The notes under the pieces: generated by a model
Database searches by the model: none
The model's input: only the letters and a program-made list of their open reading frames with translations
What the model was told of the DNA's origin: nothing
Shown here: positions 60,074 through 64,000 of the stretch, in pieces
Layout of the letters: the number at the start of each line of letters is the position of its first letter
Numbering within the stretch: the first letter of the stretch is position 1
Translations under genes and position numbers: made by a program
Source: Granulosicoccus sp.
Lineage (GTDB): Bacteria > Pseudomonadota > Gammaproteobacteria > Granulosicoccales > Granulosicoccaceae
Length of the DNA: 64,000 bases
Reading direction: 5' to 3'
NCBI GenBank assembly: GCA_020627685.1
Contig: JAHDGK010000002.1
Coordinates: 96,215-160,214, forward strand

Positions 60074-60526
60074 TTAAACTTCTTCTCCGACCACATTAAC
60101 GATGACTTCAGCGTCAACGTCAGCGTGCAGGTGAAGAGTTACCGGATGCTCACCAACCATGCGAAGAGGACCTTCTGGCAAACGGATTTCCTTCTTCTCA
60201 ACAGGCTGTCCAGCCGCCTCGAAAGCTCCACGGATCTCTTCAGTGCCGATTGAGCCGAAAAGTTTACCTTCGGTACCGGCTCTGGATGTGATGCTTACGG
60301 TCATGCCGTTAAGCGCTTCCTTACGGGTGTTGGCATTTGCCAGTGCTTCGGCCTGCTCTTTTTCGAACTGAGCGCGAAGCTCGTTGAATCGCTCCAGGTT
60401 CTCAGGAGTAGCTTGCTGAGCTTTACCTTGTGGCAACAGGTAGTTGCGCGCGAAACCTGCCTTTACATCAACCAGATCGCCCAACAGCCCTACTTTGTCG
60501 ATCTTTTCTAGCAATATGACTTGCAT
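60074..60526 (-). CDS. rplI: 50S ribosomal protein L9
   Basis: 150 residues, starting MQVILLEKIDKVGLLGDLVD with the L9 signature GFARNYLLPQGKA and a long central helix (FNELRAQFEKEQAEALANAN). Normal in all respects. It follows the multi-spanning membrane protein gene in the rpsF-rpsR-rplI operon. Confidence 0.98.
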   Translation of the reverse strand: MQVILLEKIDKVGLLGDLVDVKAGFARNYLLPQGKAQQATPENLERFNELRAQFEKEQAEALANANTRKEALNGMTVSITSRAGTEGKLFGSIGTEEIRGAFEAAGQPVEKKEIRLPEGPLRMVGEHPVTLHLHADVDAEVIVNVVGEEV

Positions 60527-60547: not shown

Positions 60548-61489
60548 TCAGGCGCGCCGGATGCGGAATATGCTGTCCGCCAACCCCAGCGCTGCCAATA
60601 AAAGCATGATATGCGGTATTACTAACAGCACGTAAATTGCGTACAGCCAGTAACGGTGCATACCGCGTTGTTTGACTAGCGAATGCGATACCGCCAGTCC
60701 TTGTACAAAAAAAGCAAAAATGACCACTGTCGCCACAGCTCCGGCTAGCTGACCGCTTTGAACCACGGACAACACAATGACCAGAACACAAACCAGTGCT
60801 GCATTTTTACCTAACGAGAGCGCATGAAATTCTTTCTGGAAGCCCCCAGGATTAAACAATCCGGCCTGCCAGGATCTGGCAAGAAATAAGGCACCCAGAG
60901 CGACAATCATGACCGAAACTCCCATCGCGCCAGTCATCATCCTGGCAATTCCTTCGATGAAAGCTTCTCGCTGCTCTTCAAGTCCGTCTTGTTCTGCACC
61001 AACAACCACTGCTCCGGCATCCGAAAACTGCGAGCGCCAAAACTCCGTGGTATCGCCTAACACCAGCGTCATACCCACTACGGTAACGACTCCGCATGCA
61101 ACGATGGTCAACACGGCAAAGTCGAGCTTTACCGATTTGGCTAAAACCACAGCTGCCAAGACAGCGGGTAGCCAGAAAACCGTTGCAATTAGCGGAACCT
61201 GCACCGCTGATTGGTGTAACACTGCTGACAGAACAATCAGTAATATCAAACAACCGCCGACCACTTGAGTCGCGGACATGACTCCATGCCGTAGAGCAAC
61301 AAACGCAACAACCGCTGCACTACAAACCAGAAACCACATGGACAGCGTGCTGGCCATGATCATTGCCCCGCCTGACACCCCACCTGCTAAAAGCACAGGA
61401 ATCCAGAGAGCAGCCAAAAGCAATGTTGCCGCGAGACCTGCCGCTATAAGCGGACCGCGATCTGCAATTTTGGCCAAGTTGATCATCAT
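60548..61489 (-). CDS. Multi-spanning membrane protein of the rpsR-rplI interval (DUF2232-like)
   Basis: A hydrophobic protein of 313 residues with about eight membrane segments and no catalytic motif. A gene of this kind (DUF2232/YybS type) sits between rpsR and rplI in Pseudomonas and relatives, which is my main reason for the name. A short soluble loop with DGLEEQREAFIEGIARMMTG lies near residues 170-190, typical of the family. Function unknown; conserved linkage suggests a role tied to growth. Confidence 0.8.
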   Translation of the reverse strand: MMINLAKIADRGPLIAAGLAATLLLAALWIPVLLAGGVSGGAMIMASTLSMWFLVCSAAVVAFVALRHGVMSATQVVGGCLILLIVLSAVLHQSAVQVPLIATVFWLPAVLAAVVLAKSVKLDFAVLTIVACGVVTVVGMTLVLGDTTEFWRSQFSDAGAVVVGAEQDGLEEQREAFIEGIARMMTGAMGVSVMIVALGALFLARSWQAGLFNPGGFQKEFHALSLGKNAALVCVLVIVLSVVQSGQLAGAVATVVIFAFFVQGLAVSHSLVKQRGMHRYWLYAIYVLLVIPHIMLLLAALGLADSIFRIRRA

Positions 61490-61585: not shown

Positions 61586-61810
61586 CTAGTGCTGGTCCGT
61601 GTACGGCAGCAAAGCGACGTATCGAGCACGCTTGATGGCCGTGGCCAATTGGCGCTGATAACGGGCTTTAGTACCAGTGATTCGACTTGGAACGATCTTG
61701 CCTGTTTCAGTGACAAAGCCTTTCAGAAGCTCGAGATCTTTGTAATCGATCTCTGTAATACCTTCGGCTGTGAAACGGCAATATTTACGACGACGGAAAT
61801 AACGAGACAT
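61586..61810 (-). CDS. rpsR: 30S ribosomal protein S18
   Basis: 74 residues, [18 protein letters not shown] with the S18 core [20 protein letters not shown] and [14 protein letters not shown]. It follows rpsF by 20 bases. S18 and S6 bind the ribosome platform as a pair. Confidence 0.98.
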
Positions 61811-62558: not shown

Positions 62559-63311
62559 TCAGCTTCGCTGCCGGACCACTTCAAACAAACTTATTCCAGC
62601 CGCAACCGATACATTAAGACTCGACACCTCACCTTGCATAGGAATTTGAAACAAGCCATCGCAACTCTCCCGCGTTAGCCGTCTCAACCCTCGTCCTTCA
62701 GCACCCATCACGATGGCAACAGGACCTTTAAGATCGAGATCGTAGAGACTCTGCTCCGCCTCGCCAGCTGCACCAAACACCCAAAGCCCTGCATCTTGAA
62801 GTTCAGCTATTGCGCGCTTTAAGTTACTCACTTGAAATAACGGCACCGAGTCTGCGGCACCGGACGCCACCTTTCTGACAACCGGAGTTAAACCTACACT
62901 GTTGTCTGCCGGAACGACAACAGCATCAACGGCTGCTGCATCGGCACTTCTCAAACAAGCACCCAGGTTATGCGGATCCTGTACTTCATCCAGCAACAAA
63001 ACCAACAAGGTTTTGTCAGGACGAGACACACTTTGTTCGGCAATAAACTGAGACAAGTCGTGACGCACACCAGTAGAGCCGCCCCGCAGAACAGCAACAA
63101 CACCTTGATGCTGCACATCGGAGACTAAATCGTTTAACTCTCCCCTGCTAACTTCTCGGGTATCGATCGCGTGCTTTTTCGCAAGCTCACGTAAATCCTT
63201 TAGGCGCGTATCACGGCGCCCTTTTTGAACTAACAGATGATCAATCTCACTGGCAGATGACTTAAGAGCTGCTTTGACACTGTGCAAACCGCCGACGTAT
63301 TGATGAGCCAT
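62559..63311 (-). CDS. rlmB: 23S rRNA (guanosine-2'-O-)-methyltransferase RlmB
   Basis: A SpoU/TrmH-type (SPOUT) methyltransferase of 250 residues that modifies G2251 of 23S rRNA in E. coli. The N-terminal substrate-binding domain begins YVGGLHSVKAAL; the knot motifs are DEVQDPHNLGACLRSAD, IVMGAEGRGLRRLT and MQGEVSSLNVSVAAGISLFE. It starts 13 bases after the stop of the upstream lysine-rich tail gene, the normal rnr-rlmB order. Confidence 0.96.
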   Translation of the reverse strand: MAHQYVGGLHSVKAALKSSASEIDHLLVQKGRRDTRLKDLRELAKKHAIDTREVSRGELNDLVSDVQHQGVVAVLRGGSTGVRHDLSQFIAEQSVSRPDKTLLVLLLDEVQDPHNLGACLRSADAAAVDAVVVPADNSVGLTPVVRKVASGAADSVPLFQVSNLKRAIAELQDAGLWVFGAAGEAEQSLYDLDLKGPVAIVMGAEGRGLRRLTRESCDGLFQIPMQGEVSSLNVSVAAGISLFEVVRQRS

Positions 63312-63324
63312 AACAAATTCTCAA

Positions 63325-64000
63325 TTAACGTGAAGTCTTCGACCGACGTTTTGCGACAGGCTTTTTCTTGCTCACTTTAGCCGTCTTCTTTGACGTTTTC
63401 TTTCCGACTTTTTTGGCCGTCGCTTTAGACAATTTCTTAGCCACTTTTTTTGTTGTCTTTTTATTGAGCTTGCTAGCAACCTTTTTCGCTGTGGCTTTAC
63501 TTTTCTTCTTAACCACTTTCTTCGCGATTTTCTTATTAGCAACTTTCTTCGCGACATTTTTTTTAGCGACTTTTTTCTTAGTTGACGCTTTTTTAGAAAA
63601 CGTCTTTTTTGAGACTGCCTTTTTACTCACAGCCTTCTTAGCAGTAGACTTTTTCGCTACTGTCTTTTTAGCTGCCACTTTCTTGCCAGCCACCTTTTTC
63701 GTTGCAGTCTGCTTACGCGTCGATACGTTCTCTTCAGACTTTTCTGATCCATTGGCACTTAACCGTAAAGCCTCCAGCCTCTTCGCCTCTTTAACGGCTC
63801 TGCGTTTTTCATCACGTCGCTGCTGTTTTAATCGGCGTTTGTCTTGACGACGCTTTTCCGCACTGACCTTCTTCGGTGGCTTCGAAGGCTGTGTTTTTTT
63901 ATATTCATCAGCCTTTACGTCACTTTCGGGTGTGCGGCTATCTTTACGCGACTTACTCTTTTTAGGCTTTGCAGCCGCAGCGGCATGTTCAAACGGTTTC
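63325..64000 (-). CDS. rnr: C-terminal part of a presumed ribonuclease R with a long H1-like tail (partial, 5' end outside window)
   Basis: The complement is open from the window edge to the TAA at 63325, giving at least 224 residues. The order is: a stretch with KPKKSKSRKDSR, a charged helix (EKRRQDKRRLKQQRRDEK), a Ser/Glu-rich spacer, then about 125 residues of Lys-Ala-Val/Ser/Thr repeats (KKTVAKKSTAKKAVSKK and similar) ending in RRSKTSR. No RNB or S1 domain is inside the window, so the identity as RNase R rests on position directly upstream of rlmB, the usual rnr-rlmB order, and on the known basic C-terminus of RNase R. A separate 122-residue gene from GTG 63693 is the alternative, but I see no ribosome binding site for it. 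Confidence 0.7.
   Translation of the reverse strand, partial: KPFEHAAAAAKPKKSKSRKDSRTPESDVKADEYKKTQPSKPPKKVSAEKRRQDKRRLKQQRRDEKRRAVKEAKRLEALRLSANGSEKSEENVSTRKQTATKKVAGKKVAAKKTVAKKSTAKKAVSKKAVSKKTFSKKASTKKKVAKKNVAKKVANKKIAKKVVKKKSKATAKKVASKLNKKTTKKVAKKLSKATAKKVGKKTSKKTAKVSKKKPVAKRRSKTSR
63372..63690. repeat. Lysine-codon-rich tandem-like repeats in the presumed RNase R tail
   Basis: Low-complexity coding DNA made of AAA/AAG-rich codons (seen as TTT/CTT runs on the plus strand), encoding degenerate AKKxxSKK-type units. Less regular than the repeats at 40079-40467. Confidence 0.55.

Follow-up and report, generated by a model that had tools for sequence, protein, structure and literature searches.

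An extended histone H1-like repeat tail on RNase R is a genus-wide trait of Granulosicoccus

Introduction

RNase R of E. coli (813 aa; L116) carries a basic, disordered tail of 80 residues after its S1 domain. The K-rich domain of the E. coli enzyme is required for its recruitment to tmRNA-rescued ribosomes and for non-stop mRNA decay, and it has been reported to raise the affinity for RNA; in non-stop decay, residues 735-750 are critical and residues 751-813 are dispensable (PMC3949413). The K/R tail gives no density in cryo-EM maps of RNase R on the 30S subunit, and ribosome binding, it has been argued, does not universally depend on it (PMC10901742, PMC12320835). The role of this tail is a matter of debate: it is required for tmRNA-linked recruitment in E. 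coli and it binds polyphosphate, yet it is invisible on the 30S subunit.

Two further groups of described proteins share features with the RNase R tail reported here. Chlamydia Hc2 and the Bordetella-type H1-like proteins contain Lys-rich pentamers that vary in number from one close relative to the next (PMC2848022); they are free-standing, DNA-binding proteins, whereas the tail analysed here is joined to a nuclease and falls below the cut-off of the HC2 family. The C-terminal KPAA domains of Pseudomonas AlgP and PhaF are likewise long, disordered polycationic repeats, which tether to DNA or to granules (PMC9239181), but their motif contains proline and their partner domains are different.

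The locus analysed here shares with E. coli the domain order of RNase R, the rnr-rlmB gene order and the presence of a basic, disordered tail after the S1 domain. It differs in that the E. coli tail has no pentad periodicity, whereas the Granulosicoccus tail is far longer and carries Lys doublets every 4-5 residues. Two Pseudomonas-like RNases R (L136 and L139, the genus being guessed from sequence) also have longer-than-average basic tails, of 162-166 residues, but these are of mixed K/A/P/G composition with acidic residues, a net charge of +30 and no Lys-doublet array. A literature search on Granulosicoccus together with RNase R, and on pentapeptide H1-like tails of enzymes, returned no paper on such an RNase R tail in the open library, which is a part of the literature.

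Results

Gene identity and context

The window, that is, the whole stretch of 64,000 nucleotides that was analysed, corresponds to G000:C3:96215-160214 of the 4.93-Mb, 117-contig assembly of Granulosicoccus sp. An earlier note, made from the window alone, had described a minus-strand frame upstream of rlmB that stays open to the window edge, and had presumed it to be the end of rnr. In 12 kb fetched beyond the window we found zero stops in this frame as far as an ATG, and the window frame 63325-63999(-) continues as an intact ORF of 959 residues with an ATG start (L003 2540-5419, minus strand). This ORF excludes the possibility that the frame is closed by a stop, or has a proper start of its own, immediately past position 64000.

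The tail shares its reading frame with the RNB and S1 domains. The NCBIfam equivalog model for RNase R (TIGR02063) scores 869.3 bits against a cut-off of 597.85 and is covered from position 2 to 708 of 711, and the Pfam domains OB_RNB (residues 98-155), CSD2 (176-249), RNB (271-598) and S1 (645-725) follow one another in the order of cold-shock domains, RNB and S1 that is expected of an RNase R. The alignment with E. coli RNase R runs end to end as far as the S1 domain. It includes the N-terminal HTH region that is absent from RNase II (residues 15-90, predicted to be helical by AlphaFold2), and it places the acidic cluster DGADARDFDD of the RNB domain opposite DGEDARDFDD of the E. coli enzyme. 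Residues D283, D286, D289, D291 and D292 of this cluster, which from general knowledge of the family we take to be catalytic, are invariant among 25 sequences (this one and 24 relatives). An RNase R fold was also predicted by AlphaFold2 from an alignment of the same size. Every feature that can be tested at this level thus places the predicted product in RNase R, and the gene at the window edge almost certainly encodes this enzyme, as presumed (Table 1).

Table 1. Features of the rnr-rlmB region of Granulosicoccus sp. Positions are those of the window unless a contig is given; residues are those of the predicted RNase R.
Feature	Position	Strand	Basis
rnr 3' end (RNase R residues 736-959 and stop; protein 959 aa)	63325..64000	-	ORF list, assembly extension, domain models
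Rest of rnr (RNB, S1, cold-shock domains, ATG start), outside the window	G000:C3:160215-162418	-	assembly extension
Tail first part, residues 736-781, basic linker predicted to be disordered	63862..63999	-	AlphaFold2 pLDDT <50 at 731-779; K+R 14, D+E 6
Predicted basic helix, residues 782-817, AEKRRQDKRRLKQQRRDEKRRAVKEAKRLEALRLSA	63754..63861	-	AlphaFold2; motif search against shuffled tails
Short near-neutral spacer, residues 818-833	63706..63753	-	composition
H1-like repeat, residues 834-959 (126 residues): 56 Lys/Arg, zero Asp/Glu, Lys doublets every 4-5 residues	63328..63705	-	composition, shuffles
rlmB, immediately downstream of rnr	62559..63311	-	ORF list; same order in E. coli

The gap between the rnr stop and the rlmB start is 13 nt, and purA lies upstream of rnr, in an arrangement close to purA-nsrR-rnr-rlmB of E. 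coli. Both smpB and tmRNA were found in the genome of Granulosicoccus sp. A tRNA-Leu(CAG) gene is located beyond the window between rnr and purA (L003 5576-5661), on the strand opposite to both, and a tRNA-His call near it, inside rnr, looks spurious. Also outside the window, a hisZ-like gene upstream of purA is broken by a stretch of N at about L003 7430-7640, the flanking sequence of which is repeated on both sides. Downstream of rlmB, the ribosomal operon includes a hydrophobic, multi-pass membrane-like protein of 313 aa (window 60548-61489, minus strand), which sits between the rpsR-like ORF (61586-61810) and the rplI-like ORF (60074-60526).

Several technical explanations of the tail were considered and rejected. 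The same architecture with adjacent rlmB recurs in many independent genomes, which argues against a frameshift or assembly artefact, and a collapsed array would not be expected to show codons as scrambled as those of this tail. The antisense ORF 63368-63847(+), of 159 aa and rich in Leu and Phe, mirrors the Lys/Ala codons of the tail and is not a gene. A phage origin was dismissed, as the tail had no match among phages.

Tail structure and repeat pattern

The complete tail of the window's species comprises 226 residues. The earlier reading, in which a charged helix precedes a long repeat of Lys and Ala, agrees with the AlphaFold2 prediction, in which the helix at residues 782-817 has block pLDDT values of mostly 77-88 and is flanked by predicted disorder at 731-779 and 818-959. 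Spacings of 4 or 5 residues account for 17 of the 24 intervals between Lys doublets in the tail, compared to 2.3 ± 1.5 (maximum 7) in 300 shuffles, so the array is far above the shuffled expectation. Identity between residues five positions apart (lag 5) has a z of 6.2, a value that was reached by none of 300 shuffles.

The description of the tail as histone-H1-like stands as regards its composition and repeat pattern and fails as regards membership in the HC2 family. The Pfam HC2 model (PF07382) scores 16.7 bits on the tail against a gathering cut-off of 40, and apart from this sub-threshold hit the Pfam scan of the tail yielded nothing. Lys-rich pentamers in variable number, the trait of HC2-type proteins, are present (lag-5 z of 6.2, and lengths that vary across the genus), which is a likeness of pattern only. 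A search of the tail sequence for KPAA tandem repeats found none.

Distribution of long tails

Named relatives identify the genus as Granulosicoccus. We compared RNase R tails in 24 Granulosicoccus members, with one genome per species, taking the length range from tails that are uncut by contig ends. The complete tails span 191-501 residues with a net charge of +44 to +119, as against 26-136 residues in the other genera of the family; the long tail is therefore a genus-wide trait rather than a peculiarity of one strain, which refines the first reading. All 24 species form one clade in the tree (support 100/99), and the distribution of the long tail is consistent with its having arisen once, in the Granulosicoccus stem. 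Within its own subclade, the tail of the window's species is the shortest complete one, with 445 residues in the sister species and up to 501 in others; the difference between 226 and 445 residues in sister species indicates that tail length changes fast.

Beyond the family, tails measure about 75-123 residues in Vibrionaceae, and in further samples, comprising about 140 genera of the class and 120 genomes of the phylum in which the longest frames were read out, they are usually shorter than 170 residues. The 'open frame' lengths in these samples run from stop to stop and overstate the proteins, so that only the frames that were read out are exact. The claim that the tail is much longer than elsewhere thus holds against the 80 residues of E. 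coli and against nearly all other sampled Pseudomonadota. Apparently very long RNase R frames in other members of the phylum (G204, 1685 codons; G194, 1000 codons) resolved, when read out, into long upstream frames or a shorter open frame; the tails there measure 36 and 43 residues. The sampled exceptions outside the genus are tails of 185-196 residues in a few genomes and one of 313 residues in G172. The RNase R of G172 (L117; G172:C13:57000-61400) shares with Granulosicoccus a long Lys-doublet repeat tail, here with a net charge of +146, but differs in its near-perfect 11-residue unit with proline, KKAVKKVAPKK. As G172 belongs to an unrelated gammaproteobacterial family, its long tail is an independent, convergent case.

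The basic helix is the only part of the tail that is conserved by sequence. Its motif, [KR]R..KR..KQ.[RKQ][RKD], occurs in 13 of the 24 genus members, with a related form, LRR.KQR.K, in 3 more, and is missing from the remaining 8; none of 12000 shuffled tails contained it. Because the motif occurs on both sides of the deepest split of the Granulosicoccus tree, the ancestor of the genus probably had it and some lines have since lost it.

Codon sharing in the repeats

The repeat units vary by species, and include TAAKK, KKVAS, KKATS, KKTTA, KKVG and the 12-residue KVAAKVSAKKQA, with lag-5 periodicity reaching a z of 17 in the genus. As a test for DNA-level expansion, we compared how often identical residues at lag 5 share a codon with the same fraction after codons had been shuffled among equal residues. 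In L012-L014, L018, L020, L024 and L025 the codon z was 5-11, which indicates fresh expansion at the DNA level; the tail arrays thus arise by tandem expansion. In the tail of the window's species, the shared fraction was 0.40 compared to 0.40 after shuffling (z = 0.0), and codon sharing was likewise no higher than shuffled in seven or so other species. Since the residue periodicity of the window's species remains strong in spite of this, the amino-acid pattern has outlasted the complete scrambling of its synonymous positions. This suggests protein-level purifying selection on the pattern in this species, rather than recent slippage. Such selection is the simplest reading, although an array built from parts that were already codon-mixed would look alike.

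Discussion

We propose that the K/R-rich C-terminal domain of RNase R was lengthened in the Granulosicoccus stem into a long, disordered, H1-like polycation that tethers the enzyme to RNA and ribosomes, an account to which we give slightly better than even chances. The tail would act by avidity, as a tether: the repeat, together with the basic helix in species that keep it, would bind the phosphates of RNA irrespective of sequence, and could hold the processive 3'-5' exonuclease on structured RNA, on stalled or defective ribosomes and on tmRNA-SmpB complexes. If phosphate binding is non-specific, charge and spacing would matter and the exact sequence would not, and the length of the tail could drift by slippage while selection keeps its pattern. 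The part of the K-rich domain in E. coli, together with the absence of tail density on the 30S subunit, makes a non-specific avidity tether to RNA and ribosome-bound RNA the best-supported reading, and charge density and spacing are the best-supported candidates for what is selected in the tail. Since residues past 750 are dispensable for non-stop decay in E. coli, trans-translation need not be what the added length is for. That RNA or ribosome tethering is the main role of the tail seems to us about an even proposition. A polycation does not discriminate among RNA, DNA and polyphosphate. RNA tethering, DNA tethering and polyphosphate binding are not separable by sequence, and the latter two are real rivals.

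With regard to the origin of the tail, a separate H1-like protein could be translated from the internal GTG at 63693 (residue 838), besides or instead of the fused tail; this frame would yield a protein of 122 aa, and a free HC2-like protein is encoded elsewhere in the same genome. However, the tail contains no ATG, none of its seven in-frame GTG/TTG codons is preceded by a stretch that matches AGGAGG at more than 4 of 6 positions, and relatives have few or no Met residues in their tails. The earlier statement that the frame lacks an internal start with a convincing ribosome-binding site is thereby borne out, and in view of the continuous ORF we rejected such a gene as extremely improbable. 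A fusion of rnr with an H1-like gene in the Granulosicoccus stem is possible, but the lengthening of an existing K-rich domain is simpler; the idea that rnr was recently fused to a paralogous H1-like gene was discarded, as matches within the genome, of which only the free HC2-like protein and an N-terminal extension of DksA are close, contain no long identical stretch. Replication slippage might also have produced the tail as a low-complexity expansion, neutral or selfish, with no function past that of an ordinary short K-rich domain. The nearly pure DNA-level tandem arrays of several species, the more than twofold difference in length between sister species and the dispensability of E. coli residues 751-813 for one function (PMC3949413) all speak for this view. 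It is nevertheless improbable in our estimation, given that residue periodicity is intact where codons are randomised, as they are in several species including that of the window, that no complete Granulosicoccus tail is shorter than 191 residues, that the 126 residues of the repeat include not one acidic residue, and that a similar tail arose by convergence in another family.

As to the target of the tail, the principal rival of the RNA tether is a nucleoid anchor that binds DNA in the manner of Hc2 and the AlgP/PhaF C-termini and keeps RNase R at the chromosome, where it would serve co-transcriptional RNA turnover or work on R-loops and DNA damage. Pentad repeats of Lys, Ala, Ser and Val in variable number are a hallmark of Hc2-type DNA-binding proteins (PMC2848022), the KPAA tails of AlgP and PhaF bind DNA (PMC9239181), and RNase R has been reported, in work cited in PMC12320835, to protect an Antarctic P. 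syringae from DNA damage; the weak HC2 similarity of the tail and the free HC2-like protein of this genome, whose repeat is of the same type, point the same way. On the other hand, the HC2 score lies under the curated cut-off and is explained by composition, the KPAA motif is lacking, and RNase R acts on RNA, to which a polycation of this kind would bind as well, and we therefore regard nucleoid anchoring as unlikely. The tail could instead be a sensor or scaffold for polyphosphate that brings RNase R into polyphosphate-RNA condensates or granule storage during starvation. Polyphosphate binds the S1 and basic region of E. coli RNase R via lysines, P. aeruginosa Rnr is cited in the same source as a polyphosphate binder (PMC12345225), the H1-like AlgP is located on polyphosphate granules (PMC9239181), and the genome encodes a full polyphosphate kinase (ppk, 904 bits against a cut-off of 466). 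But ppk is common and not specific, and the ppk-rnr phenotypes of E. coli are independent of polyphosphate binding (PMC12345225), which leaves this role, like neutral slippage, improbable. A broader version, in which RNase R is a hybrid of nuclease and H1-like scaffold whose tail draws RNA, polyphosphate or DNA of the nucleoid together in a condensed phase or on a surface where RNA is degraded, appears to us quite unlikely, if a little less so than the polyphosphate role; if true, RNA turnover would be spatially organised by RNase R itself and not by RNase E.

The tail clearly illustrates how a disordered region can be conserved in its pattern and not in its sequence. The natural series of lengths in Granulosicoccus, the short tails of its sister genera, the fast-changing units and the convergent case provide material for questions on tail length and Lys spacing.

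Two other proteins of the Granulosicoccus sp. genome carry H1-like sequence. A free H1-like protein at the left edge of contig C90 (G000:C90, 2 to about 330, minus strand; L002, L115), reading MKTKTVRKSVTRKS...AKKPVAKKPAAKKPVRK and truncated by the contig end, has an HC2 score of 38.5 bits, just below the cut-off of 40. DksA, encoded at about 36.4-37.4 kb of G000:C17 on the plus strand (L131), is a second information-processing protein with an H1-like extension, which in this case is N-terminal, rich in Lys and Ala and about 190 residues long; the protein scores 116 bits with DksA_N and 44 bits with zf-dskA_traR, and its HC2-like composition gives 32.5 bits, below the cut-off.
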